Origin: a bacterium HR30
GTDB lineage: Bacteria; Desulfobacterota; Binatia; HRBIN30
Assembly: GCA_002898795.1 (NCBI GenBank)
Contig: BEIG01000013.1
Span: forward strand, 1 to 47,627
Reading direction: 5' to 3'
DNA: 47,627 nucleotides
Shown here: in pieces, positions 3,025 to 39,685 of the stretch
Layout of the letters: each line of letters starts with the position of its first letter
Numbering within the stretch: position 1 is the first letter of the stretch
Position numbers and translations under genes: made by a program
The notes under the pieces: model-generated
Told to the model about the DNA's origin: nothing
What the model saw: the letters and a program-made list of their open reading frames with translations, nothing else
Databases searched by the model: none

Positions 3025-5830
3025 GGGGAAGATTCTCCACCACCGCTACGCAGCGAGCACAGAGTCCAGGATGCGCTGCATTCGATCCAACGGACTGACT
3101 AAAGTTCCAGCAGCGTTCGCACTTTTTTCCTCGCGCCGGCTCCACGGCAATGCAAAGCTCCGGCAGGATCGGGCTTGCGGCCTCGGGTGGGAGTGATTCG
3201 TCCCACTCGACCTGCGAGACAATGAACACGGTAGGAAGCTCGCTCAAATACTCCCGCAGCAGCGAGCCAAGGGCTCCCGCGGCACGCAGCCGCACGAGTG
3301 CATCCAGAGAGTGTCCAATTCGGTCCGCGCGTCGTGCATCTTCCAGGGCCTTGGTCACGGCAGCGCGCACATCGAACAGCTTCTCCCAACGAGCGAACAA
3401 GGCTTCGTCGCGTGGCAAGTCATCGCGAAACTGGAGGAAAAACACGCTGTCTGCGGGGCGCGCCGGTACGTGCCGGAACACCTCTTCCGCAGTGAACGAC
3501 AGAATCGGAGCCATGACGCGCACCAATGTGTCGAGAAGCTCGAACAACGTCGTTTGTGCCGAGCGACGAGCGTGCGAGCCAGGAGCAGCGGTATAAAGGC
3601 GGTCCTTGACGATATCCAGGTACAACGCGCTTAAATCCACCGCGCAAAAGTTCACCAAGTGGTGCACGACCAAATGAAACTGGAAGAGTTCGTAAGCTCG
3701 CCGCACGCGGTGATTGAACTCGGCAGCACGGTGGAGAATCCAACGGTCCAGCTCCGGTAGATCCCCCACAGGTACACGGTCGCGCGTCGGATCGAAGTCA
3801 TAGAGGTTCCCCAGCAAAAAGCGGCACGTGTTGCGAATCTTCCGGTACGACTCCAACAGCGGAGCGATGAGCGCTTTCGAGAACGAAACATCGGCAGTGT
3901 AGTCCACCGAGGCAAACAACAGGCGCAACACCTCCGCACCGTGCTGACGAATGATTTCCTCGGGGGATACGACGTTGCCAAGTGACTTCGACATCTTCTT
4001 GGCCGCTTCATCCAGGATCAGCCCGTGTGTGAGCACGGCACGGTAGGGCGCGGCACCTCGAGTAGCCACTGCTGTCAACAACGAGACTTGAAACCAGCCC
4101 CGATGTTGATCGACCGCTTCGACGTACAAGTCGGCGGGCCACTGAAGCCCCTCTCGCTGCTCCAGTACGGCCACATGCGAACACCCGGCATCGAACCACA
4201 CGTCGAGGATGTTCTGATCCTTCTCGAACTCGCTCCCTCCACACCGACAACGCTTCCCCGGGGGTAGAAGCTCCGCCGTGGGCAGCTCGTACCACGCGTC
4301 GGAACCACGGCGAGCGAACACCTGCTCTACGTGGCGGATAGTCTCGGGATCGAACAAGAACTCCCCGCACCGAACGCAGCGGAAGGCTGGAATGGGCACA
4401 CCCCAGGCGCGTTGCCGCGAGAGGCACCAGTCGGGCCTATGTTCCACCATGTTGTAAATCCGATCGTGCCCCCACGAAGGGATCCACGTGACGCCATCGA
4501 TTTGCTGCAACGCCCGCTGGCGCAACTGCGCATGATCGACACGGAAAAACCACTGCTCCGTCGCTCGAAAGATCAAGGGCTGTTTGCACCGCCAACAGTG
4601 AGGGTACGAATGGCGCAATTGCTCTGCCCTGAGCAAGCTACCTTTCTGGTCAAGCAAACGAACGATGTCGTCGTTAGCCTCGAACACCGGCCGACCGGCA
4701 AACGGCCCGGCCTCCTCCGTGAAGCGCCCTGCGCCATCGACCGGGGTAAGCACGGGCAAGCCATATTTCTGCCCGACCGCGAAGTCCTCGTAACCGTGTC
4801 CGGGAGCCGTGTGGACGCAACCCGTACCGACATCGGCTGTGACGTGCGACTCGAAGACCAGCCGCACGGCGCGGTCGAAAAACGGGTGACGAAAAACGTC
4901 GCGGCCGTCGAGCGGTTTCAAGTCCACGGGGATGCGGGCCGCAGCGGTGCGCCCAAGCGCGCCAAGAAAGGCCTCCGCCAACCGCTCAGCCACGATATAT
5001 AGATCCCCGTCAACGTCCAAAGCCACGTAGTCGAGGTGCGGGTTGAGGCACACCGCTAGATTCGCCGGCAAGGTCCATGGAGTCGTCGTCCAGATTACCG
5101 CGAACAACCGATTCGCCCGTTCCGCCAGGGCCGCACGGTCTTCCTCGCGCTTGGCGATCGCCCGGGCATCTTCTGGCGAGCCCACGAAGGGGAAGCGCAC
5201 GTAAATCGAGGGCGACACGTGTTCACTGTACTCGACCTCGGCTTCGGCCAAGGCGGTAGCGCACACCGTGCACCAATGAACCGGCCGCAACCCACGGTAA
5301 ATGTAGCCTCCCTCGACGAGCTCGCGGAACACACGAACGATTTGCGCTTCGTACTCTGGCGACATCGTCAGGTAAGGCCGCTCCCACTCGCCGAGCACGC
5401 CCAAGCGTTGGAACTCCGAACGCTGAATGTTCACGAACTTTTCCGCATAAGCGCGACAGCGCTGACGAATCTCGAGCCGACTCAGGGAACGTGCCTTCGG
5501 GCCCAATTCTTTGGTCACTTGATGCTCGATCGGCATTCCGTGGCAATCCCAACCTGGAACAAACGGCACCCGGTATCCCGCCAGCAGCTTCGATTTGAGC
5601 ACCATGTCCTTGATGATCTTGTTCAACGCCGTTCCCAGGTGCACGTGCCCATTGGCATAAGGAGGCCCGTCGTGGAGAACGTAGAGCGGACGACCCGACG
5701 TGGCCTCTGCCAGCCGGGCGTACAAACCGCTCCGTTGCCACTCCTCCACCCACGCCGGCTCCCGTTCCGGCAGGTTGGCCCGCATGGGGAAATCCGTCTT
5801 GGGTAAGTTCAGGGTTTGCTTGTAATCCAT
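3017..5830 (-). CDS. ileS: Isoleucyl-tRNA synthetase
   Basis: 937 residues, the usual length for bacterial IleRS, which charges tRNA-Ile in the cytoplasm. The class I signature PPYANGHVHLG lies at residues 56-66 (HIGH motif), the editing domain follows (WTTTPWTLPANLAV), KKMSKSLGN is near residue 605, and a C-terminal zinc-binding Cys4 site is intact (Cys904, 907, 924, 927 in CERC...CARC). Start ATG at 5830 has GAGGG about seven bases upstream. First gene of the ileS-lspA pair; divergent from the amgK-like gene with about 220 bases between starts. No T-box element was seen in that leader. Confidence 0.98.
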   Translation of the reverse strand: MDYKQTLNLPKTDFPMRANLPEREPAWVEEWQRSGLYARLAEATSGRPLYVLHDGPPYANGHVHLGTALNKIIKDMVLKSKLLAGYRVPFVPGWDCHGMPIEHQVTKELGPKARSLSRLEIRQRCRAYAEKFVNIQRSEFQRLGVLGEWERPYLTMSPEYEAQIVRVFRELVEGGYIYRGLRPVHWCTVCATALAEAEVEYSEHVSPSIYVRFPFVGSPEDARAIAKREEDRAALAERANRLFAVIWTTTPWTLPANLAVCLNPHLDYVALDVDGDLYIVAERLAEAFLGALGRTAAARIPVDLKPLDGRDVFRHPFFDRAVRLVFESHVTADVGTGCVHTAPGHGYEDFAVGQKYGLPVLTPVDGAGRFTEEAGPFAGRPVFEANDDIVRLLDQKGSLLRAEQLRHSYPHCWRCKQPLIFRATEQWFFRVDHAQLRQRALQQIDGVTWIPSWGHDRIYNMVEHRPDWCLSRQRAWGVPIPAFRCVRCGEFLFDPETIRHVEQVFARRGSDAWYELPTAELLPPGKRCRCGGSEFEKDQNILDVWFDAGCSHVAVLEQREGLQWPADLYVEAVDQHRGWFQVSLLTAVATRGAAPYRAVLTHGLILDEAAKKMSKSLGNVVSPEEIIRQHGAEVLRLLFASVDYTADVSFSKALIAPLLESYRKIRNTCRFLLGNLYDFDPTRDRVPVGDLPELDRWILHRAAEFNHRVRRAYELFQFHLVVHHLVNFCAVDLSALYLDIVKDRLYTAAPGSHARRSAQTTLFELLDTLVRVMAPILSFTAEEVFRHVPARPADSVFFLQFRDDLPRDEALFARWEKLFDVRAAVTKALEDARRADRIGHSLDALVRLRAAGALGSLLREYLSELPTVFIVSQVEWDESLPPEAASPILPELCIAVEPARGKKCERCWNFSQSVGSNAAHPGLCARCVAVVENLPHG

Positions 5831-6050
5831 CCAAGGCCCTCGGCATCTCTGACCACGGCAAAAACCTGAAGCGCGCCTTGTAGCAGCGTCGCTCCCGCGA
5901 TTTCAAACAAACGGAACGCGGCAGCGCAAATCCATGGGGACCTTCTTCTAGCGGTCCATCCAGGCTTCCGAACAACCCTCACCCCGACAAGCAAGCCAGT
6001 GCCACCGGCTGCTTGTTTGTGCGTGCGTTTTCCTGGTACTAGCACGGCCC

Positions 6051-7124
6051 GTGCGTGAAGATCGCCTGGCGGCGCTCGAGCAAGCAGTGGCCCTCGCTTT
6101 TGGAAACCAGACCCGGTTGACGACTCGGCAGGCTCTGGCGGGTGACGCCTCCACGCGCAGTTACGAACGCATCTGGCTTTCCGGTTCGAGCGCACCCAAA
6201 ACTGCCGTGGTCATGTGGCTAGCCGACCGTGGCGTATCCATTTCTTCTGACGAGCTCGCAGTGCTCCCTGAAACCCTAACCGAGCTCCCCTACGTCAACG
6301 TGTACCGTTTCCTTCAGCGAATCGGGGTCGATGTACCCTTAATTTACGCAGACTGCTCTTCTCAGGGTCTCCTCCTGCTCGAGGATGTCGGCGACCTCAA
6401 TTTGTGGGAGACCGTATCAGCGGCAAGCCATGAGAAAGAGGTAATCGAGTGGTTTTGCCGCGCGGTCGACCAGCTCGTCGCCTTGCAGCTCCGCGGCGCC
6501 AGCCAAAAGTCTTCTGAGTGTATTGCCTTCCAGCAGAACTTCGACGCTCGCTTGTACCTTTGGGAGTGCCACCACTTCCTCGAATGGGGCTTAGAGCGAA
6601 GGATCCGGCACCCGTTGCCGCGCGCGGAGCAACAGGCGTTGGACGAGGAGTTCCGCGTTCTCGCAGATCGGCTAGATGCCGAGAAGCGCTTTTTGGCTCA
6701 TCGCGACTACCACGCCTGGAACCTGTTCGTACAGCCTCCGGCTCGCCTTCGCGTGATTGACTTTCAGGACGCATTGCTTGCCACTCCGGCTTACGATTTG
6801 GCCACGCTTCTCGGCGATCGCGATACACCTTCAGTCGTCACGCCTCTACGCGAGGAGGCTTTGCTCCGTTACTACCTCGAACGTTGGCATCAGGAGGGCG
6901 GCCCTACTCTCGACGCAAAGGAGTTCATCCAAACCTACCGCCTCTGCGCACTGCAAAAAGCCCTGAAGGTCGTAGGACGTTTCCACTACTTGGCGGAAGC
7001 GAAACAAAAGCCCCAATATTTGCGCTACATCCCAGCGACACTGCGGCAAATTCGCCGGCTTCTTCCTTTTTTTCCCGAGTTTCCGGCGATCGCCACCGTT
7101 ATTCAGCGCTACTTCCCTGAGTGA
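6051..7124 (+). CDS. amgK: Sugar kinase of the aminoglycoside phosphotransferase fold, AmgK-like (MurNAc/GlcNAc anomeric kinase)
   Basis: 357 residues from a GTG start. Catalytic features of the APH fold are intact: AHRDYHAWNLF (Asp219 as catalytic base, Asn224) and VIDFQDALLATPAYDL (Asp237 as metal ligand). The DFQDA box followed by YDLATLL is characteristic of AmgK, which phosphorylates the anomeric hydroxyl of N-acetylmuramic acid in the AmgK-MurU recycling route described in Pseudomonas. The next gene is a MurU-like nucleotidyltransferase overlapping or adjoining by a few bases, which strongly supports the assignment. The start has no clear ribosome-binding site and could lie slightly further downstream. 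Activity on other sugars, as in related lipopolysaccharide-type kinases, is possible. Confidence 0.85.
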   Translation: MREDRLAALEQAVALAFGNQTRLTTRQALAGDASTRSYERIWLSGSSAPKTAVVMWLADRGVSISSDELAVLPETLTELPYVNVYRFLQRIGVDVPLIYADCSSQGLLLLEDVGDLNLWETVSAASHEKEVIEWFCRAVDQLVALQLRGASQKSSECIAFQQNFDARLYLWECHHFLEWGLERRIRHPLPRAEQQALDEEFRVLADRLDAEKRFLAHRDYHAWNLFVQPPARLRVIDFQDALLATPAYDLATLLGDRDTPSVVTPLREEALLRYYLERWHQEGGPTLDAKEFIQTYRLCALQKALKVVGRFHYLAEAKQKPQYLRYIPATLRQIRRLLPFFPEFPAIATVIQRYFPE

Positions 7125-7126
7125 AC

Positions 7127-7861
7127 ATGCGCGCGATGATTCTTGCGGCCGGCCTTGGAACTCGCCTTCGCCCTTTGACCAACGAGGTGCCGAAACCCCT
7201 GCTTCCCGTAGCAGGCAAGCCCATGATTGCATACGCCCTAGAACTGGTGGCTAACGCCGGCATCCGCGAAGTGGTGATCAACCTTCACTACCTTGGAGAA
7301 CAAATCCGCTCGGCCCTTGGCACCGGTGAGGCCTTCGGTGTCAGGATTTTTTACTCAGTAGAACCGCATCTCCTCGATACAGGTGGAGGGATTGCCGCCG
7401 CACGGAGATTTCTTGGGGATTCCCCGTTCGTGGTCGTAAACTCCGATGTTTACATCGAGGGAGATCTCCGCGAACTCATCTCCTTTCACGAACAAAAGGA
7501 GGCCTTGGCCTCACTCTGGGTACGCCCTGACCCTCAAGGAGTCCGCCACGACAACGTGCGGGTTGATTCCGCGGGCCGCGTTTACGGCCTCCTTGGGCAT
7601 ACCGCGAGCCCTGATCTCGCCAACCAATTGCCGCGATATTTTTATGCCAGTGCCATGGTCTGCAGCCCTGGGATTTTCGAGTTTCTACCTCCGGGTATTT
7701 ACAGCCTGACCCGCGACGTCTTGCCCAGGCTGGTTAGGGAGCGTAAACCCGTGTTTGCCCTGGAACACACTGGATACTGGCGGGTTCTCGATACTCACGA
7801 AGATTACCGTGAGGGTTGCCGCGAAATTACTGCTCGCCGGGGTTTTGCGCCCCGATCTTGA
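7127..7861 (+). CDS. murU: Sugar-1-phosphate nucleotidyltransferase, MurU-like
   Basis: 244 residues from ATG at 7127; a GTG at 7121 overlapping the stop of the kinase gene is the alternative start. The nucleotidyltransferase signature GLGTRLRPLTNEVPKPLLPV is N-terminal, followed by the LDTGGGI box and a nucleotide-binding NSDVY motif. MurU converts MurNAc-1-phosphate and UTP to UDP-MurNAc, bypassing de novo synthesis and so bypassing the fosfomycin target MurA. Pairing with an AmgK-type kinase and similar length (about 220-240 residues) fit this role; mannose-1-phosphate or glucose-1-phosphate specificity cannot be excluded. Translationally coupled to the kinase gene. Confidence 0.87.
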   Translation: MRAMILAAGLGTRLRPLTNEVPKPLLPVAGKPMIAYALELVANAGIREVVINLHYLGEQIRSALGTGEAFGVRIFYSVEPHLLDTGGGIAAARRFLGDSPFVVVNSDVYIEGDLRELISFHEQKEALASLWVRPDPQGVRHDNVRVDSAGRVYGLLGHTASPDLANQLPRYFYASAMVCSPGIFEFLPPGIYSLTRDVLPRLVRERKPVFALEHTGYWRVLDTHEDYREGCREITARRGFAPRS

Positions 7862-7921
7862 CAGAGCAGGCCGCTAGGCCGAAGTTTTGCTTTGCTGTTC
7901 TCCTAGCAGCAACGAGGTTTC

Positions 7922-9265
7922 ATGGGCATCACGATTGTTCAAAAAAGCAACTTAAATGAGCGGAAGCGGAAGGCCAAAGTGGCTTTGGTTTTGGCCGGAG
8001 GCGCGGTTACCGGCGGCGGGTTTAAGCTCGGGGGTCTAAAGGCGCTGGACGACTTCCTCGTAAACCGGAAGACGACGGATTTCGATACCTATGTCGGGCT
8101 TAGCGCTGGAGCTGTGCTTTCAGCGCCCCTAGCTGCCGGGGTAAGCCCAGCAGAAATGATGCGAAGCCTCACCGGCGAATCCGAGCACTTCAGCCCGCTC
8201 GGGGCTTGGGATTTTTACTATCCGAACTTCCGGGAATTCCTGAGCAAGCCCGCGCAGTTTGCGTTGGACGTAGCCTGCTATTTGCCCAATCTACTCGTCG
8301 ACGTACTCCGCTCTCTCCCTCGGCTAAGAGCGGAACTGGAAACGCCCCTGGACCGAGCATGGAAAAGTCCATCGGTCCGTAACCTCGAGGCGGTGCTCGA
8401 ACCTCTCGGTAACCTGCTGGCAAAACAGCGGAGTTTGCCCTCGCCTCTCGATTACTTGCCGTCAGGGCTATTCGATAACAGCCCGATCGAGCGGTACTTG
8501 CGCCGCAACTTCGAAGCTGCCGGCATGCCCAACGACTTCGTCGGGTTGTACCGCCGAACCGGCAAAGAGTTGTACATTAGTGCGATGAACTTGGATACCG
8601 CGGAGAGGGTGGTGTTCGGTCACGACGAGGATACGTCCCTTACCGTCTCGGAGGCGGTGCAAGCTTCCACGGCTCTGCCTGGATTTTATAAGCCTGCTCG
8701 AATTCGTGGAGTCGACTATGTCGATGGGGGCGTGCGGCGCACCGCCAATATCGATGTTGCTATCGAGCATGGGGCCGATTTGGTGATTTGCTACAACCCA
8801 TTTCGTCCCTTCAATAACCGCGTGCGGCGTATCCGGGAAAACGGCTCCTACCGCATCGAAGGCAAGCCCTTGGCCGACATGGGTTTGTTTACGGTGATCA
8901 ACCAAGTCTTCCGCACCCTGTTACACTCGCGGCTGCAGTACGGACTCCGCCAGTACCAGGACGACCCCAACTTCCGTGGCGACATCGTCGTCATCGAGCC
9001 GCAGGAAACGGATCTTCACTTTTTCGAACTGAGCGCGCTTGCCTTCTGGCAGCGCGTGGCAGCGGCTAACCATGGGTACATCTCGGTCAGTGAGTCGATC
9101 GAGCATAATTACGATCTGATCAAGCAAATTCTGGCGAGTTACGGGATTCTCATGACCCGCAAACAGGTTCGCGCAGGGGTGGAGCGTATCCGCGAAGCGG
9201 GGGAGGAAGAATCGTCAGACGTGCTCACTGAGGAGTCGCCTCGGCGACGGCTGCATGTTGCCTAG
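7922..9265 (+). CDS. Patatin-like phospholipase family protein
   Basis: 447 residues, ATG at 7922 with GAGGT just upstream. The patatin lipase core is complete: a glycine-rich oxyanion segment (GGAVTGGGFKLGG, about 26-39), the nucleophile elbow GLSAG with Ser61, and the second member of the Ser-Asp dyad in VDGG (Asp268). No signal peptide, so it probably acts from the cytoplasm on membrane lipids, cleaving acyl esters. A long insertion (about 95-185) separates the elbow from the core and may form a membrane-contacting lid. It follows murU with a 60-base gap and may be read through from it. Substrate unknown. Confidence 0.9.
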   Translation: MGITIVQKSNLNERKRKAKVALVLAGGAVTGGGFKLGGLKALDDFLVNRKTTDFDTYVGLSAGAVLSAPLAAGVSPAEMMRSLTGESEHFSPLGAWDFYYPNFREFLSKPAQFALDVACYLPNLLVDVLRSLPRLRAELETPLDRAWKSPSVRNLEAVLEPLGNLLAKQRSLPSPLDYLPSGLFDNSPIERYLRRNFEAAGMPNDFVGLYRRTGKELYISAMNLDTAERVVFGHDEDTSLTVSEAVQASTALPGFYKPARIRGVDYVDGGVRRTANIDVAIEHGADLVICYNPFRPFNNRVRRIRENGSYRIEGKPLADMGLFTVINQVFRTLLHSRLQYGLRQYQDDPNFRGDIVVIEPQETDLHFFELSALAFWQRVAAANHGYISVSESIEHNYDLIKQILASYGILMTRKQVRAGVERIREAGEEESSDVLTEESPRRRLHVA

Positions 9266-32232: not shown

Positions 32233-35200
32233 CTATTCAACCCGGTTACCGCATTCGAATCCAGGAGCCAGCATACTGACGAATCGTGTCGGAGCCGCGA
32301 CACCGACGCTGGCGAAAAATCGCTCGGCTTGGGTCGTCAGCTTCTCTCCCACCAATCCCGCACACTGCTGGCCCGCGCGATAACCAGCAACTGCGGCAGC
32401 TAACGACATACCTGCCGACTCGAATTTTTGCTGGGCTGCGGTCAACCACTCTATGCTTTGGCTGGCCTTTCCGGTGGAGGTCGCCAGTGCTGCCCGAAAG
32501 ACCAACGCCCAACCTGTGGCGTCGACTCGCCGCTCACGCTCTAGCGCACGGACGACCCGATCGGCCTCCCGCCCCATCCGAGCAACGTCTTGATCTCCAC
32601 GAATCATCTCCGCCAACGCCAGACGCCCGCGCAGCACCAAGGCGTCAATGCGAAAGATCGTGTGACGCATCAGAGCGCTGCGCTCGAGCACGCGCCACAG
32701 TGTCTCGAAGCGCCGTGCTGCCTCCACCGCATTCCCCTCGTAAAGATCGCAGAGGCTTTCCAAGCGAGCAGCATAAAAATGCTGGAGGTGAAACCCCGTT
32801 GTTTTCCACCGGCCGGTGCTTTCTGCGGCCAACTGGCGCGCCGTGCCGGGTTCTCCCACCGCCAGTAGACAAAAGCCCTCGTACAAAAGTCCGGTCACCT
32901 CGGCGTAGAGATTACCCGCACGACTGGCTTCTTGAACCATGGCAGCCGCCTGGCGGTGAAGGTCGCTCAACCTTCCCAACTCCTCCAGCGCTCGTAAGGC
33001 CGCCATCGTCGCAATGGCCACTTCCCACGCCACCCCATGGCAGCGTAAGCGGAACACGTCGCGAGCATGCTCGCAAAGCGATAGCATCTCGGCCCAGCGG
33101 CATTCCATCATGCGGGTTTGCGCAATTCCCAGGGAGGTAACGGCTTCGAGGTATGCATCGTCCGTCATGCGTGCGATCGCGCCCGCCCGTTCGATCATCC
33201 TAGTAGCCCAGCGGCCAAACAGCCCACCCATCGGCAATAAATTACTGCCGACGAACGAAAGGGACCGAGCCAACCGATGGCGATCGCCGCTGACCAGAGC
33301 CCAGCGCAACGCGTGCAAGGAAAAATACAAACCCCTCGGTGGATCGACAAAAGAAAGGCCCTTCGCTGCGGCATGACAACTGTCGCATCGCGCGAGCGCG
33401 CCGGCCACCAAAGGAACGACGCCTCTCGTGCGGGCTCGTCGCTCTTGCCACCACAAAGGCAACACCTGCCACGCCGATCGCAACAGTGCCCTGGTCGGGG
33501 AGGAGGGAATTTCCAATCCCACCTGCTGGAGTACCGCGCCAAGGGCTGCCATACCCTCCAACAAATGGCCACTCATCAGGTACTCCTCGGTGGCGCGGCG
33601 TTGCAACTCATTGGCCAAGCTCGCGTCGGCCGTTTGTTGCGCCAGAGCTAAGAACACCGGGGCCGCTGCGGAGCCGCGGCCGGCATTGACCAACATCTCC
33701 GCTCGCTTCCGTTCGATCTCGACCCGCTCCACCGCATTTGCAGGGCACCCCAAGGCCAAAGCCTCGGCATAAAGCTCTGCAGCTTTTTCAAAAGCCAATT
33801 GCCGCGCCGCGCGATCTGCTGCCCGCAGTGCCCATTCGGCAGCCTCGGGCAAATGGCCGGCCGCTCGCCAGTGATGGAACACTCGCTCCTCTTCCACCGT
33901 GGCCTCTGTTGCCAAATACTGGGCCAGCAATACGTGGCACCGTTCGATCTCCGACGCGGACAGTCGTTCTCGCAACACCTCGCCCACCCGCTGGTGATAC
34001 GGCTCCACGAGCATTCGTTCGTCCGCTCGATTGATGCGAAGCAAACGGGCGGCTTCGAGCGAGGACGCTACCGGCCGGCCCCTCTCGCCAAGCCCCGCCA
34101 TTCGCAAGAGCAAGTCGCGCGCAATGGGGTGCACTGCCACCGCGGCTAAATCTAAAATGCGCCGCGCGGCTACCGGCAGCATCTCTACCCGGACACTCAG
34201 GAGATCCCGCAGTGCGAGAGAGGGTGAAAGCCTTCCAGGCACGGTGCACCGCGCTGCATGCTGCACGAGCTGGCTAATCAGCAGGGGCGAACCTTCTGCT
34301 TCCTTGACGATCTCCTCGACCAGGCCAGAGCTCAATTCCGTGCCCTGGCAGTGCAGTACCACAAGTCTCCGGGATGAGGCAGTGGACAAAGGTCCCAAAG
34401 AAATTGTGCGCACCAGATCAGGCCACGACCGCGACGACGGATCCTCGAGCATGGGTAGTGCCGTACCCGGCTCGTTGCTGCGCTGACACAAAATCATGAA
34501 CGCGGGCGGCGCCCCAGGGGGCCGGAAGAGCGCACCCAACAACGCCGCGCTGTCGGCGTCGGCCCACTGCGCATCGTCAATCCAGAGCACCAGCGGGCTT
34601 CGGTCTGCAGCCCGCAACAACAGCTCCCGCAGGCTTTCAAAGGCCACCCGCCGCACTTCGCGTGGCTGCATGTTCGGGCCCGGCGCTACGGAGTAGCGGG
34701 ATTCCTCCCTCCCCATCACGGGGAACACGCGAGAAAGGCAGTCGAGCTGGAGCGCGGTGAGGTGCTCGAAGGGGTTCGGTTGCTGGGCAGCTAACCAGAG
34801 ACTGAGTTCGTCAACGATACCGTCGAGGGCGTTGAAGGGCACGGACTCTTGCCAATGGCAACGCGCGCGCAAAATAAGAGGGGATTCCGATAGAGAGATC
34901 TCACGCAAAAACTGGCGAACCAGTTCGGTTTTACCAATGCCGCCTGGGCCGCTCACCACGGCCACGATAACCTGACCGCGCACGGACTGCTTGAACAGCG
35001 TTGCCAGCTCCTGCAGTTCATCCTCCCGCCCAACAAACAACCCAGCGCTCGGCGTTACAAATTCGGCAGCAACGGGAACGGTTGCCGGTGCTCGAGTACC
35101 GATCTGGATCTCCGACAAGGTACGCTGCCAGCACCCCCCGTCGGGACGGTGTGCGGGGTCGGGGTCTAAGGAGGCCACGATTAGGTCCGCTAGAGGGTCA

Positions 35201-35961
35201 GGAATTCTTCCCGCTAGTGCGCCACGCACGTCTCCCAAGCGCTTTTGCTTTGCGTTCCAAACCTCTGCCGGGGTACCTGTGAACGGCGGCAAACCCGTGA
35301 CTGCCTCGAACAGTAAAACCGCTAGGCTGTACCAATCACAGGCAGGCGTCGGGGGTCTACCCAAGATCGCTTCGGGGGCCATGTAAACCCAAGTTCCCGC
35401 AGGGCCGCGCTCGATCAAGCGCTCGATGCCTTCCGGATCGCGGTGCGCGGCGAGCCCAAAGTCGAGCAGCACGATGCCCCCAGCCGAGCGCCACAAAACG
35501 TTGCTCGGCTTAACGTCGCGATGCACAATTCCAGCGGCGTGCACTAAAAGGAGAGCATCCACAAGGTCAGAGGCCGCATGGAGGAGCCCCTGGCTGCGCT
35601 CGGGATCCATCGGGGGGCTTGCGGTTGCGAGTTGCCCATCGGGCTCGTCGGCTCGTTCGCTTACGACTGGTAAGCCATCGACGAATTCCATCGAGAAAAA
35701 GGTGCCGTGGCTTGGGCTCGAAAACAGCTCGTACATCTCCACCAAAGCCGGGTGGCGGAGCGAGCGCAAAATCCGAAACTCACGCTTGAGGCGGTAAATC
35801 TCGTGCGAGCTCCACCCCTCGAGAGCTTTCAGCGCGACCTCTACCCGCGTTTCCCGATCATAAGCGCGGTACACGATGCTGTGAGAGCCCCGGCCAACGA
35901 TGCCGAGGATCTTGAAGCGGCCCTCTTCCGCGACGAGGTGCGAAGCATTCGAAATTGCCAT
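32233..35961 (-). CDS. Ser/Thr protein kinase fused to STAND-type ATPase and helical repeats (PknK-like)
   Basis: 1242 residues. Residues 14-285: active Hanks kinase with glycine loop GRGSHSIV, Lys45 (ALKAL), HRDVKPSN (147-154), DFG (167-169) and MAPEAI. Residues 305-600: STAND/AAA-type ATPase with GREDELQ, Walker A GPGGIGKT (338-345) and Walker B LVLWIDDAQW. From about 690 to the end: helical TPR-like repeats. This is the PknK/MalT-like layout in which ligand or partner sensing by the repeats controls the NTPase and kinase. No membrane span, so cytoplasmic. Its ATG overlaps the stop of the NtrC-like gene (TGATG, 35963-35959), so the pair is co-translated. Likely target: the adjoining regulator. 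Confidence 0.93.
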   Translation of the reverse strand: MAISNASHLVAEEGRFKILGIVGRGSHSIVYRAYDRETRVEVALKALEGWSSHEIYRLKREFRILRSLRHPALVEMYELFSSPSHGTFFSMEFVDGLPVVSERADEPDGQLATASPPMDPERSQGLLHAASDLVDALLLVHAAGIVHRDVKPSNVLWRSAGGIVLLDFGLAAHRDPEGIERLIERGPAGTWVYMAPEAILGRPPTPACDWYSLAVLLFEAVTGLPPFTGTPAEVWNAKQKRLGDVRGALAGRIPDPLADLIVASLDPDPAHRPDGGCWQRTLSEIQIGTRAPATVPVAAEFVTPSAGLFVGREDELQELATLFKQSVRGQVIVAVVSGPGGIGKTELVRQFLREISLSESPLILRARCHWQESVPFNALDGIVDELSLWLAAQQPNPFEHLTALQLDCLSRVFPVMGREESRYSVAPGPNMQPREVRRVAFESLRELLLRAADRSPLVLWIDDAQWADADSAALLGALFRPPGAPPAFMILCQRSNEPGTALPMLEDPSSRSWPDLVRTISLGPLSTASSRRLVVLHCQGTELSSGLVEEIVKEAEGSPLLISQLVQHAARCTVPGRLSPSLALRDLLSVRVEMLPVAARRILDLAAVAVHPIARDLLLRMAGLGERGRPVASSLEAARLLRINRADERMLVEPYHQRVGEVLRERLSASEIERCHVLLAQYLATEATVEEERVFHHWRAAGHLPEAAEWALRAADRAARQLAFEKAAELYAEALALGCPANAVERVEIERKRAEMLVNAGRGSAAAPVFLALAQQTADASLANELQRRATEEYLMSGHLLEGMAALGAVLQQVGLEIPSSPTRALLRSAWQVLPLWWQERRARTRGVVPLVAGALARCDSCHAAAKGLSFVDPPRGLYFSLHALRWALVSGDRHRLARSLSFVGSNLLPMGGLFGRWATRMIERAGAIARMTDDAYLEAVTSLGIAQTRMMECRWAEMLSLCEHARDVFRLRCHGVAWEVAIATMAALRALEELGRLSDLHRQAAAMVQEASRAGNLYAEVTGLLYEGFCLLAVGEPGTARQLAAESTGRWKTTGFHLQHFYAARLESLCDLYEGNAVEAARRFETLWRVLERSALMRHTIFRIDALVLRGRLALAEMIRGDQDVARMGREADRVVRALERERRVDATGWALVFRAALATSTGKASQSIEWLTAAQQKFESAGMSLAAAVAGYRAGQQCAGLVGEKLTTQAERFFASVGVAAPTRFVSMLAPGFECGNRVE

Positions 35962-37553
35962 CAGGAGCCGGGCTTCTCCTCGCTCAACCCGAATAGGCGG
36001 ATCAGCCGATGAACGTGCGAGCGGGCCACCCCCAAGCGCCGCGCGGCTTCGGTGACGTTGCCGGCGGTGTCCTCCAGGGTATGGCGAAGCAAGTGTTTCT
36101 GAAAGGCACGGGTGGCTTCGTGAAAGGAACCCCTGAGGAAATTCTCTAGCTCGGAACTCGGAGCCTCCACTGCTCCCGCAGCACTAACCTCCACGCCCGG
36201 AAACAGGTGCTGCGGCTCCACGATTGCACTGGCATCGGCGGTAGCACGAATGACACCAGCTTCGATAACGTGGGCGAGCTGCCGAACATTGCCGGGCCAC
36301 GGAGCAGCTTGAAGCGCACTCAAAGATTCCGGCGACAAATGAACGGCGCCGAGACGATGGCGTTCCCAAGCCTGGGCGCAAAAATACGCGGCGAGCTCCG
36401 GAATGTCCTCACGGCGCTCAGCCAACGAAGGCAGACGGATGGGCATCACCTCCAGGCGATAGAACAAATCCTCCCGAAACCGCCGCTCCGCCACGGCAGT
36501 GCGCAAGTCTGTGTTCGTGGCAGCAATGAGCCGCACGTCGGCCCGCACCGGGCGCGCACTGCCCAGTGGAAAGTACTCCCGTGTTTGCAAGAGGTGCAGG
36601 AGCTTGCCCTGCGCCATCAAGGGCAAGTCGCCGACCTCGTCGAGCAACAAAGTGCCGCCCTCGGCCGCTGCCACCTTACCCAGAATGGCGCGATTGGCCG
36701 TGGAATGTGCGCCCGGAACCGCACCAAAGAGCTCGCTTTCCACCAAATTGTCCGGCAGCGCAGCGCAATTCACCTCGATAAACGGAGCGCTAGCCCGCGG
36801 CCCGTTGTCATGCACGAGCCGGGCAAACTGGCTCTTGCCGGTGCCGGACTCCCCGGTGAGCAACAACGTCACGTCCAGCGGCGCTACCATGTGCGCTTGC
36901 TGCAAAACCCGCGCGAGGGCTTGAGAGCGACCGATAACGCCAGAAAGTTTCAGCCGCGCTCGGCTCGCCGCCGTGGGGTCGGTAATGCTCGCATCCCGAT
37001 AGCTCCTCAAGGCACGCTCGGCCAGGGGAGCAAGTAAGTGCCCCACCGTTTCCACAGCATGGCAGCAGTCGTCGGATAACAGCGGCCAAGCTTCGCTGCC
37101 TTGCAAGTAAATCACCCCGTAAGTGGGCTCAGTTCCAATGGGTGCACAACAAACCGCACCAATCTGGGCGGAGGACACACTGGCTCGTTGGTTGAAACGC
37201 GGGTCGAGCACGGCAGCAGGCGTGATCACGGCTTTGCCGGAAGCCAGTACTTCGGCAATGATCCCGTGCGACACAAGAAATCGCACTTGTTCGATTTCTG
37301 CAGTCGAAAAACCGTGCGCCCGGAACCAAACGGCACGGGGCTCTCCATCGGGCTCGCTGCGATCGACCAGCTCCAAATAGCCTTGCCGGGCGCCCGTCAT
37401 TTCCACCAACAGGAGCAAGGCTTCTTGCAAAAAAGGTTCGATCGCAGTCTCGCGCCCGAGTTCGAGCAACCGGAGGTACAAGTCGCGCTCACGCCGGACA
37501 CGGGCCAGCTCGTCGCCGCCCGTTCGATTCATCCACGCGGCACCGTACGCCAT
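35961..37553 (-). CDS. NtrC-family AAA+ transcriptional regulator (GAF-AAA-Fis HTH) with GAHSTA in place of GAFTGA
   Basis: 530 residues from ATG 37553; ATG 37532 and a GTG at 37742 are alternatives, none with a good ribosome-binding site. The conserved part begins NRTGGDELARVRRERDLYL. GAF sensor about 32-180, AAA+ about 205-425 with Walker A GESGTGKS (234-241), Walker B GGTLLLDEVGDL, sensor RLIAATN and FREDLFYRL, then a Fis-type helix-turn-helix (AGNVTEAARRLGVARSHVHRL, about 497-517, split here by its first residues). The loop that contacts sigma54 reads GAHSTA at 281-286. TyrR and Rhodobacter capsulatus NtrC also lack GAFTGA and act with sigma70, so sigma54 use is uncertain. No receiver or FHA domain; coupled to the kinase gene. 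Confidence 0.9.
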   Translation of the reverse strand: MAYGAAWMNRTGGDELARVRRERDLYLRLLELGRETAIEPFLQEALLLLVEMTGARQGYLELVDRSEPDGEPRAVWFRAHGFSTAEIEQVRFLVSHGIIAEVLASGKAVITPAAVLDPRFNQRASVSSAQIGAVCCAPIGTEPTYGVIYLQGSEAWPLLSDDCCHAVETVGHLLAPLAERALRSYRDASITDPTAASRARLKLSGVIGRSQALARVLQQAHMVAPLDVTLLLTGESGTGKSQFARLVHDNGPRASAPFIEVNCAALPDNLVESELFGAVPGAHSTANRAILGKVAAAEGGTLLLDEVGDLPLMAQGKLLHLLQTREYFPLGSARPVRADVRLIAATNTDLRTAVAERRFREDLFYRLEVMPIRLPSLAERREDIPELAAYFCAQAWERHRLGAVHLSPESLSALQAAPWPGNVRQLAHVIEAGVIRATADASAIVEPQHLFPGVEVSAAGAVEAPSSELENFLRGSFHEATRAFQKHLLRHTLEDTAGNVTEAARRLGVARSHVHRLIRLFGLSEEKPGS

Positions 37554-38196
37554 CCCAGGCTGGAAGGCAAGACTTGAGGGGCTCGTTTTCTCCGTCCCCG
37601 CGGCGGGTCGATCCCCTGAAACGTTGTTCGCGCGCCCACGAGAAACCGGTGACACCGGTTCGAGCCTCGGCAGATCACCGTACAGGGTGTTTTGCGGTAA
37701 CTGGTACGCACCCTTCCGTCGCCACAAGCATGGACCGGCCACGTGCCCTTGGTCAAAGTAGCGGTCGAGATCTGGTCGAGATTCGCTCCTCGGGGGTACC
37801 CTTCAAGTCCACGCACGCAGTCCTGTCCCACCGGAATCGGCACAGGGTCGGAGGGTCGCCCATACCAACCTAGAAACTCATCCCAGCGCGACGAGGCGAA
37901 GAAACCTGCGTTGGGCTCAGGCGAAGACAGGTAGCGCGCGCTCCAACTGGGCCAAACAACAAGAAGGGGACGCTTCCGCATAGGACGGGCTGACTCACAT
38001 TCGGAACGCTTTTCCCCCTCGAACGTACTTATGTCCTCTAAAGGAGACGCTGCAGAGGTGCCTGAAGCTCCCCAAAGAGCCAAATCGGGTTGGCACGTTA
38101 CTTGTTGTGTAATTGGGGAAAGAAACCGGCTCGAACCGAGCAAACCCCTACTGGCCAGTGGACAAGCAAGGCGAGCCCATCGAAGAGGAGAGACCG
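37554..38196. other. Intergenic region between the regulator and the Cys-rich protein
   Basis: About 640 bases. Minus-strand frames continue upstream of the regulator start for several hundred bases but lack a ribosome-binding site and recognisable domain; part of this could be an N-terminal extension of the regulator (to 37742). The plus-strand end contains the sigma54-like element at 38090-38106 and the ribosome-binding site of the next gene. Confidence 0.45.
38090..38106 (+). promoter_or_regulatory. Sigma54-like promoter before the Cys-rich secreted protein gene
   Basis: TTGGCACG (38090-38097), four bases, TTGTT (38102-38106). The -24 GG (38092-38093) and the -12 position (38104-38105) are separated by exactly ten bases as in sigma54 promoters; the -24 half is perfect and the -12 half has GT instead of GC. 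A start about 12 bases further on would leave an 80-base leader before ATG 38197. Confidence 0.55.
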
Positions 38197-38697
38197 ATGA
38201 AGCCAGACACATCCCACCACATCCCCGGATTACTGATCACTACCCTTGTCGGCGCGAGCATGGCATTCGCAGCTTCGTCTGCACAGGCCGGCGACTCTTT
38301 GGCGTGTCAATCCGCCAAGCTCAACGCGCAGGTCAACCATGCACGCTGCGTTGTTCGCTGCCGGCAGCGTCCGCCAGAACGCGTGCAACCGTGTGAAACA
38401 CGTTGCGACCAGCGGCTTACGCGCCGTCTCCAGATCCTGCAGTCTGCTCCGGTATGTACGGGTGCGAGCTCTGGACCAACTCCAGACAACGACGTGTGCG
38501 ACCTTCAGCTCTTGAAGGCGGCATGGAAACAAGTGAAATGCTTCCTGCGTTGCGAGCGCCTAGCCGTCAACTCGCCGACGTTCGATATCGGGCAGTGCAA
38601 CGATAGATGCACCAGTAAATTCAACCGTACACGAGCGCGGGTGTTACAACAGCCCACCTGTGCGCAACACTCGGGTCAGATGCCCAGCATCAACTAA
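38197..38697 (+). CDS. Secreted cysteine-rich protein with two tandem twin-CX3C modules
   Basis: 166 residues from ATG 38197 with GAGGAGAG six bases upstream. Signal peptide: MKPDTSHHIPGLLITTLVGA followed by SMAFAASSAQA, cleaved near residue 31. The mature protein has 12 cysteines in two copies of one pattern: C-x13-C-x3-C-x10-C-x3-C-x16-C (Cys37, 51, 55, 66, 70, 87) and C-x13-C-x3-C-x14-C-x3-C-x16-C (Cys101, 115, 119, 134, 138, 155). Each copy contains R-C-rich helices (ARCVVRC, VKCFLRC, ETRC, NDRC). Two CX3C pairs in antiparallel helices resemble the disulphide-locked hairpin of small Tim proteins, by pattern only. Flanked by a sigma54-like promoter and a strong terminator, so a single-gene unit. 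Function unknown. Confidence 0.85.
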   Translation: MKPDTSHHIPGLLITTLVGASMAFAASSAQAGDSLACQSAKLNAQVNHARCVVRCRQRPPERVQPCETRCDQRLTRRLQILQSAPVCTGASSGPTPDNDVCDLQLLKAAWKQVKCFLRCERLAVNSPTFDIGQCNDRCTSKFNRTRARVLQQPTCAQHSGQMPSIN

Positions 38698-38729: not shown

Positions 38730-38763
38730 GCCACGCCGAGCCCAGCGCTCGGCGTGGCTTTTT
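38730..38763 (+). terminator. Intrinsic terminator after the Cys-rich protein gene
   Basis: Perfect 12-bp stem GCCACGCCGAGC (38730-38741) and GCTCGGCGTGGC (38747-38758), 5-base loop, followed by TTTTTGTG. Thirty bases after the stop codon and just before the converging formyltransferase stop. Confidence 0.9.
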
Positions 38764-38767
38764 GTGC

Positions 38768-39685
38768 CTAAAAGCGATGTCCGGTGCTCAGACCGATCTC
38801 CTGAGCCACTTCCGCTGCGGGACGCTTCGCGCCGCTCCCGTAGCGTAGCCGTTTCACCACAATGGCGCCCCCTTGCGCCGCAACGACAAGGCCGTTGGGT
38901 CCAATCTCCAGGACCGTACCAGGGACGCTATCAGGCAAGCGCGCCCCGGTCTTGCGAGCGTCGAAAAATCGTAGTTTTTCCCCGCGCACCCTGTTGTAAG
39001 CCCCCGGCTGTGGATCGCACCCGCGAATCAGATTGTATACCTGCTCGATCGGCTGCGACCAATCGACCTCTGCATGCTCATCCCGACAAAGTGGATCGTA
39101 TGTCGCTTGCGACTCGTCCTGCGGAATTCGCGGGGCGACACCGCGGTCGATCAAACGCACCGCTTCGACCACCGCTTCCACCCCTAGTGGGAACAACTTG
39201 TTGAAGTACAGCGAGGCGGCCGTGTCGTCAGGATCGATGGTGGCTTCCTTTTGCAGCAAGATCGGACCCGTATCGATGCCCTGGTCCACCCAAAATACGG
39301 TGACCCCGGTTTTGGTTTCCCCTTTGATAATCTGCCAGGGGATTGCACTGCCACCCCGATACTTGGGGAGCAACGAAGGGTGAAAGCAAATACTGCCCAG
39401 CCGGGGAACGACAAAAACCTGAGGCGGCACGATTTGGGTAACGTAAGCGAGCACTGCCAAATCGGGATGGAGTTCTTGCCACTCTTCTCGCACCTTTGGG
39501 TCTTTCAACGAGGCGTGCTGCCTTACCGGAATCCCCAACGCAACGGCCCGAGCCTTTACCGGATCCGGCTTGTCAGGCGCGGCATCGGGCGGACAGTACA
39601 CGGCGACAACTTCGTGACCGTCTTGTCGAAGCCGGTCCAAAACCTCAGCGGCAAAGGCTGCTTGTCCCACGAGAATGATCCGCAT
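38768..39685 (-). CDS. Formyltransferase-family protein, FDH (10-formyl-THF hydrolase)-type rather than classical Fmt
   Basis: 305 residues. The N-terminal hydrolase/transferase core shows CFHPSLLPKYRGGSAIPW with His102 and VDQGIDTGPILLQKE with Asp138, then PLGVEAVVEAVRLI and a C-terminal FDH/Fmt-C-like barrel (VPGTVLEIGPNGLVVAAQGG). In methionyl-tRNA formyltransferase an Asn precedes the catalytic His by two (NVH); here it is Cys-Phe-His, like the YHPSLLP of 10-formyl-THF dehydrogenase. It should therefore take the formyl group from 10-formyl-THF, but the acceptor (water, Met-tRNA or a sugar amine) is open. A link with folD and the gcv genes is functional, not positional. Confidence 0.82.
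   Translation of the reverse strand: MRIILVGQAAFAAEVLDRLRQDGHEVVAVYCPPDAAPDKPDPVKARAVALGIPVRQHASLKDPKVREEWQELHPDLAVLAYVTQIVPPQVFVVPRLGSICFHPSLLPKYRGGSAIPWQIIKGETKTGVTVFWVDQGIDTGPILLQKEATIDPDDTAASLYFNKLFPLGVEAVVEAVRLIDRGVAPRIPQDESQATYDPLCRDEHAEVDWSQPIEQVYNLIRGCDPQPGAYNRVRGEKLRFFDARKTGARLPDSVPGTVLEIGPNGLVVAAQGGAIVVKRLRYGSGAKRPAAEVAQEIGLSTGHRF

Follow-up and report, generated by a model that had tools for sequence, protein, structure and literature searches.

The window studied here, a stretch of 47,627 nucleotides from a bacterium HR30 of the class Binatia (contig BEIG01000013.1), carries a gene for a 166-aa protein with 12 cysteines that is, judging by profile scores, a divergent member of a large unnamed module family rather than an orphan. 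We read this protein, with moderate confidence, as an exported, stand-alone pair of alpha-helical hairpins that are stapled by disulfides and have a basic docking or spacer role. Because an extracellular module common in a mostly uncultured class lacks a Pfam or NCBIfam match, annotation of the proteins carrying it probably reflects just the domain that follows. The hairpin family also seems to be a natural disulfide-swap experiment, in which the same frame holds either staple pair or both, and at about 55 residues the domain allows tests of disulfide placement, of stability, and of how paired cysteines evolve together. Docking, if true, would reveal how bacteria of this class retain their extracellular oxidases, esterases, and lectin-like domains.

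The twelve-cysteine gene and its setting

The gene (38197-38697, + strand, stop codon included), delimited from the open reading frame translation and its orthologues, is preceded by a ribosome-binding-site-like AGGAG 6 nt upstream of the ATG (38186-38190, + strand; recognized by eye) and begins with a signal peptide of residues 1-31 (38197-38289, + strand), for which cleavage after AQA (AQA-GD) was likewise assigned by eye. The first cysteine is the sixth residue past that site, and the protein, which the first-pass annotation had taken to be secreted, is apparently exported. It is basic (pI 9.3, net charge +10) and carries no other domain, its two modules standing alone. The 12 cysteine codons span exactly 38305-38661, and the twofold pattern C-x13-C-x3-C-x10/14-C-x3-C-x16-C described in that annotation proved exact. 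Module 1 (38305-38457, + strand) reads C37-x13-C51-x3-C55-x10-C66-x3-C70-x16-C87 and module 2 (38497-38661, + strand) reads C101-x13-C115-x3-C119-x14-C134-x3-C138-x16-C155 (i.e., cysteine gaps of 13-3-10-3-16 and 13-3-14-3-16), each being a predicted helical pair; the intermodule linker (38458-38496, + strand) has 13 residues, of which four are invariant in three species, and its model confidence is low. The two modules are 22% identical, in agreement with the claim that the halves share little identity otherwise. When the 135-aa mature sequence was shuffled 200,000 times, the first six and last six cysteines had the same four outer gaps once, and a single 13-3-n-3-16 module arose in four shuffles.

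When 193 genomes were searched with the 166-aa protein, each of the genus's two other genomes had a full-length orthologue (71% and 62% identical), and both orthologues keep the same two patterns and all 12 cysteines. The gene is shown by its codon substitutions to be under purifying selection, with a dN/dS of 0.145 for the closest pair of the three species (from alignment column 32 on, approximately residue 13 of the window protein); in the other two species pairs synonymous sites were saturated, and the ratio is given for the closest pair only. In all three genus members, the gene lies between a GAF/sigma-54-type regulator and a formyltransferase, both on the opposite strand. In the window, the regulator (35961-37742, - strand) consists of GAF, sigma-54 activator, and Fis-type helix-turn-helix parts, and the formyltransferase (38768-39685, - strand), with both Formyl_trans domains, converges on the 12-cysteine gene; the position of each is kept in the two other species. 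Judged from its sequence, the gene is real, given orthologues in conserved gene order, retention of all 12 cysteines, and a dN/dS of about 0.15 for the nearest one. An intrinsic-terminator-like stem-loop with a T run (38730-38758, + strand; 12 pairs, 10 of them G-C) was found by pattern match only, as one of five terminator-like sites in the scanned stretch, of which one is on the gene's strand, versus 1.4 expected. The gene is apparently transcribed on its own.

The order of the genes beyond the regulator was also compared. The start of a Ser/Thr kinase-AAA gene meets the regulator's stop at a shared base (35961; both genes within window positions 32233-37742, - strand), and this gene order is kept in the two other species of the genus. 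At locus L199 (genome G001, about 5381-9233), approximately 3.3 kb more separates the regulator from the 12-cysteine gene than in the window.

Conservation along the protein was uneven across the three species: helix A of module 2 (38497-38553, + strand), a candidate interaction face, ranked first with 18 of 19 invariant residues (three sequences only), compared with 15 of 19 residues in helix A of module 1, 10/22 and 12/22 in the two helices B, and 7/31 in the signal peptide. This unevenness, and the retention of a sigma-54-type regulator and a Ser/Thr kinase as neighbors in all three species, would suit an envelope protein, signaling or structural, that has its own protein partner and whose hairpins serve as a rigid scaffold for helix A of module 2. 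We regard such a partner as possible but rather unlikely, considering that the conservation comes from three sequences and that the neighbors lie on the other strand from a gene that seems to be transcribed by itself.

An unnamed module family of the Binatia

As a single query, the 166-aa protein gave weak matches in 61 of the 193 genomes at an E value of 0.1, many of them surely chance. With a ten-module profile, 53 of the 193 matched at E 0.01; two of these belong to other classes, and each of the two had one weak match. A wider profile, at a cutoff of E 1e-4, matched 51 of 148 genomes of the window's class, the richest of which had 26 module matches (per-genome counts with this profile are lower bounds, at most 44 candidates having been scored in each). 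In a sample of the phylum, 5 of 198 genomes matched at E 1e-3, and four of the five belong to the window's class; the two other-class genomes noted above had no match with the wider profile at this threshold, and within the class of the fifth genome, that genome alone among 60 matched at E 1e-4. In the genomes sampled, the hairpin family appears nearly confined to one bacterial class. A profile scan of assembled genome contigs recovered five family loci among 83 candidate stretches, in Deltaproteobacteria bacterium DP_26, DP_3 (two loci), OFTM64, and a Candidatus Binatia bacterium. The last of these has a module protein that also occurs, unchanged, in a genome of the window's class (G059), in line with that class being Binatia (phylum Binatota). 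With the 166-aa protein alone, 19 pattern stretches in assembled genome contigs included no relative. A scan of viral contigs gave 10 pattern stretches, likewise without a relative, and a plasmid search returned nothing for the window protein or for the tandem of a relative.

In the window's own genome (95.8% complete), the 12-cysteine gene is the only family gene found, with two module matches. Against a profile of 217 modules from which the window's genus was excluded, module 1 scored 25.3 bits and module 2 scored 33.7 bits, though with a mild circularity in that the members had been gathered by profiles including window rows. None of 1000 shuffles with cysteines held fixed reached the score of either module (maxima of 12.6 for module 1 and 19.8 for module 2), which shows the modules to be homologous to the family beyond their cysteines. 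By the definition used here, a family module has C1 and at least one whole inner pair, usually with C6; both window modules have C1, C6, and both inner pairs.

The first-pass annotation had regarded the protein as a duplicated module without a named domain and had called for a profile search for one-module and multi-module relatives, and such relatives were indeed found. A one-module protein in a species of the same family shares the loop SPTFD with module 2, and in other relatives the two modules follow one another as in the 166-aa protein. The two modules are present as claimed, but a private duplication was rejected, since relatives have the same tandem order. Module spacing in the window's genus is 64-65 aa versus 82-110 aa in other tandems of the family. 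Compared with relatives linked to GSDH, Lcl_C, or DUF4215 domains, the window's genus has all six cysteines in both modules and no other domain, and it shares with the family the same C1 frame, inner-pair rule, tandem order, and preceding signal peptide. The lack of a name also stood in part: Pfam, NCBIfam, and PHROGs gave no significant match for the 166-aa protein, but it belongs to a large family, albeit an unnamed one. Modules of 24 relatives had no significant match in Pfam or NCBIfam either; the best values (E 0.035 in Pfam and E 0.011 in NCBIfam, to the STY0301 family, one module each) were taken as chance. The literature matches listed, which covered few subscription papers, included no description of the hairpin domain, and a term search of the main text of the Binatota genome paper found none of the words 'cysteine', 'disulfide', and 'secreted'.

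Inner-cysteine pairing and the predicted fold

Across the family, the inner cysteines come and go as whole pairs. The module set comprised 239 rows from 193 loci (223 distinct modules), in which 117 modules have C3+C4 only, 82 have C2+C5 only, 17 have all four, 6 have none, and 1 has C2+C4; the same frame therefore carries one or both staple pairs in 216 of the 223 modules and a single inner pair in 199. Both modules of the window's gene are in the all-four class, a minority form. For C2/C5, both, first only, second only, and neither were counted in 99, 1, 0, and 123 modules, and for C3/C4 in 134, 0, 1, and 88 (phi of 0.991 for each pair, with the other four pairings at -0.78 to -0.80). The pairing holds after thinning to 58 modules of <40% identity (31/1/0/26 for C2/C5 and 33/0/1/24 for C3/C4). 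The C2+C4 exception, L021, has a short loop and would fit C2+C5 if the loop were shifted, and is probably misaligned. Closest pairs that differ in class (24 distinct) all differ by whole pairs. Tandems are alike in most proteins (C3+C4 in both modules in 39, C2+C5 in both in 12, and all four in both in 6) and mixed in others (C3+C4 followed by all four in 5, C3+C4 followed by none in 5, and none followed by C2+C5 in 1).

These clean classes rest on the profile alignment, and a count by exact spacing alone is noisier as the distance to C6 varies (C3+C4 in 90, all four in 16, C2+C5 in 14, only C2 in 65, only C3 in 22, none in 5, C2+C3 in 1, no usable C6 in 9, and no C1 in 1). A C1-C6 pair is without covariation support: C1 is nearly constant, and in 74 of the 239 rows the alignment does not reach C6. 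With cysteine columns and the class-specific loop masked, a tree of the modules had 33 columns left, too few for a firm tree; its supported branches carry only two independent state changes, with which a sign test cannot reach significance, and a parsimony count of 35 cysteine-pair changes was set aside as evidence. Two GSDH-linked tandems (L036 and L037) have an extra cysteine two residues before C2 in both modules, giving CXC in module 2, and the cysteine thus left over in each module could link one hairpin to the other.

AlphaFold2 predicted the mature window protein (residues 32-166; 4 sequences) to form helices at 4-25, 29-52, 65-94, and 100-119, with middling confidence (mean pLDDT 74.5, pTM 0.53, and 4 residues at pLDDT >=90). 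In mature numbering, C1-C3 are residues 6, 20, and 24 and C4-C5 are residues 35 and 39 in module 1, and the corresponding residues are 70, 84, and 88 and 103 and 107 in module 2; in both modules of the model, C1 to C3 are on the first helix and C4 and C5 on the second, as the first-pass annotation had anticipated in proposing paired helices with CX3C cysteines facing each other. The tandem of a relative (6 sequences) was modeled with pLDDT 84.8 and pTM 0.78, with helices at 2-29, 35-55, 64-82, 87-117, 123-142, and 152-157, i.e., with a long extra helix between the hairpins, whereas the window model has no third long helix there. Foldseek searches with the two models returned nothing at E 0.001 or better; the best VIA Z scores (7.3 and 8.1 for the two models) were within the range for common helical arrangements, and Tim proteins and alpha-hairpinins were absent among the fold matches listed for both, an absence that carries no weight.

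Because the inner cysteines covary as two interchangeable whole pairs, nested disulfides across a helical hairpin are suggested, and we consider it very likely that the modules are helical hairpins stapled by disulfides. Each module would consist of helix A (with C1, C2, and C3), a short turn, and helix B (with C4 and C5), with C6 just beyond. We infer that C3 bonds C4 beside the turn, that C2 bonds C5 one helical turn further out, and that a C1-C6 bond most likely closes the hairpin at its base; the three disulfides per unit proposed earlier are thus plausible, the inner two by covariation and C1-C6 as the likely third. As for the oxidation of such thiols, one 430-aa frame of the window's genome (L201/L202, G000:C168:174-1316), probably a fused oxidative-folding protein, has both VKOR and DsbA-like matches, and further DsbA-like matches lie elsewhere, with no DsbB match; exported thiols can therefore be oxidized in this organism.

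Plant alpha-hairpinins are the nearest architecture known to us, and homology is not claimed. According to the parts of the sources available, they are secreted and have two antiparallel helices with a CX3C in each, bonded Cys1-Cys4 and Cys2-Cys3 (PMC7191063), with a CX3C-X4-20-CX3C core and a six-cysteine type of CX3CX3C-n-CX3CX3C (PMC11591084). The window modules fit this core as do alpha-hairpinins such as EcAMP1, VhTI, and the pumpkin C2 peptide, and they may resemble them further, with helical pairs predicted and nested bonds proposed from covariation. Unlike alpha-hairpinins, they have two extra cysteines, C1 and C6, set 13 and 16 residues out from the CX3C motifs, and predicted helices of approximately 20-30 residues; the bacterial modules are also in tandem behind a signal peptide, and in the family one inner bond is usually absent. 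Against solved chains, the family profile had the C2 peptide (VBP-1, 6wql) as its sole match at E up to 10, at a non-significant E of 0.28, and the 166-aa protein alone found no relative, its sole match being unrelated (E 5.5). We file the gene under an undescribed family with an alpha-hairpinin-like fold, as neither an alpha-hairpinin nor a Tim protein.

Proposed docking or spacing, and alternative roles

Among 124 complete relatives, a hydrophobic 12-mer lies within 60 aa before the first module in 118 (median gap 12). The modules have a median net charge of +6, the later part (from 30 residues past the last module) has a median net charge of -6.9 per 100 aa, and the sequence after the last module has a median length of 227 aa. 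In 121 of these relatives (three were left out for length), the carried domains, given as the best 25 of 29 families, included Lcl_C (27), DUF4215 (9), and GSDH (7), with hydrolases, GH16, GDSL lipase, pentapeptide, and thrombospondin-type families as well; judged by name, no hairpin model was among these 25. Because a stapled basic front module is common to unrelated secreted domains, docking or spacing at the cell surface is suggested, and we put an anchoring or docking role, rather than an enzymatic or metal-binding one, at about an even chance. In relatives, the module behind the signal peptide would hold mostly acidic parts at the cell surface or matrix. The window protein, with its net charge of +10, would serve in the cell envelope as a basic docking or spacer module that resists proteases; in its genus, with the carried domain and the third helix absent, the hairpins would act alone, probably via helix A of module 2. 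This role is extrapolated from the relatives, and charge and position fit several roles. A bolder version, which we hold to be improbable, is that the module is a class-private, dockerin-like adaptor on unrelated secreted enzymes and lectin-like domains, plugging them into a common matrix or receptor, with inner disulfides as interchangeable staples that lineages swap, double, or drop, and with the window protein as a free-standing two-hairpin piece.

The likeness to alpha-hairpinins, in the twin CX3C layout and the predicted helical pair, raises the alternative that the protein is a secreted antimicrobial or inhibitor that attacks competitors or blocks a protease. The window protein is small, apparently secreted, and basic, and plant peptides of the same layout are described as antifungal, antibacterial, and trypsin-inhibiting in the available part of PMC7191063. 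The module of the relatives, however, is usually within a larger protein rather than a free peptide, and no immunity-like gene is among the neighbors examined (the regulator, the kinase, the formyltransferase, a dienelactone-hydrolase-like protein, and an IclR regulator), and we therefore find this role unlikely.

Cofactor binding by the CX3C pairs, at a metal or haem site, was prompted by a histidine after C3 (CX3CH) in 39 of the 134 C3-bearing modules and in 6 of the 17 six-cysteine modules, but was rejected as very improbable: the window modules have Arg and Glu at this position, a four-thiolate site should keep the four inner cysteines together while 199 of 223 modules keep one pair, and the protein is apparently exported in an organism with VKOR/DsbA-type oxidation proteins.

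Small Tim and CHCH proteins (twin CX3C or CX9C) are helix-loop-helix proteins with paired cysteine motifs that are oxidized outside the cytosol. The first-pass annotation had likened the modules to small Tim chaperones, and the twin CX3C and the predicted helix pair bear this out as a resemblance, which is best taken as analogy. Unlike these proteins, the window protein has extra outer cysteines and, in place of Mia40-dependent import, a Sec-type signal peptide (by eye), and the hairpin family shows no sign of the hexamer rings of small Tim proteins. zf-Tim10_DDP and CHCH were absent among the Pfam matches of the 166-aa protein (E up to 10) and of 24 family modules (E up to 1), most matches above about E 0.1 having been filtered in both searches. 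That the protein is a true bacterial relative or ancestor of mitochondrial small Tim/CHCH proteins, acting as a periplasmic chaperone, was rejected as extremely improbable in spite of the twin CX3C, the loop of 10-14 residues, and the probably nested bonds, given no Tim/CHCH family among the filtered Pfam matches, no significant match of the family profile to solved chains, a family that hardly extends beyond one bacterial class among the genomes sampled, and 199 of 223 modules without one cysteine of each CX3C. The stapled hairpin pair with a docking or spacer role remains our preferred reading.

Two further observations concern the relatives' architecture. Modules of the C2+C5 class (in relatives such as L041, L045, L049, and L051) may go with other carried domains than those of the C3+C4 class, and an Lcl_C-like sequence lies behind the module of L051. 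At L198 (1942-4935, + strand), a 998-aa frame contains two copies of a stretch of well over 100 aa, with NHL-like repeats (named by eye) in between; the doubling may have arisen by a recent duplication or be an artifact of assembly.
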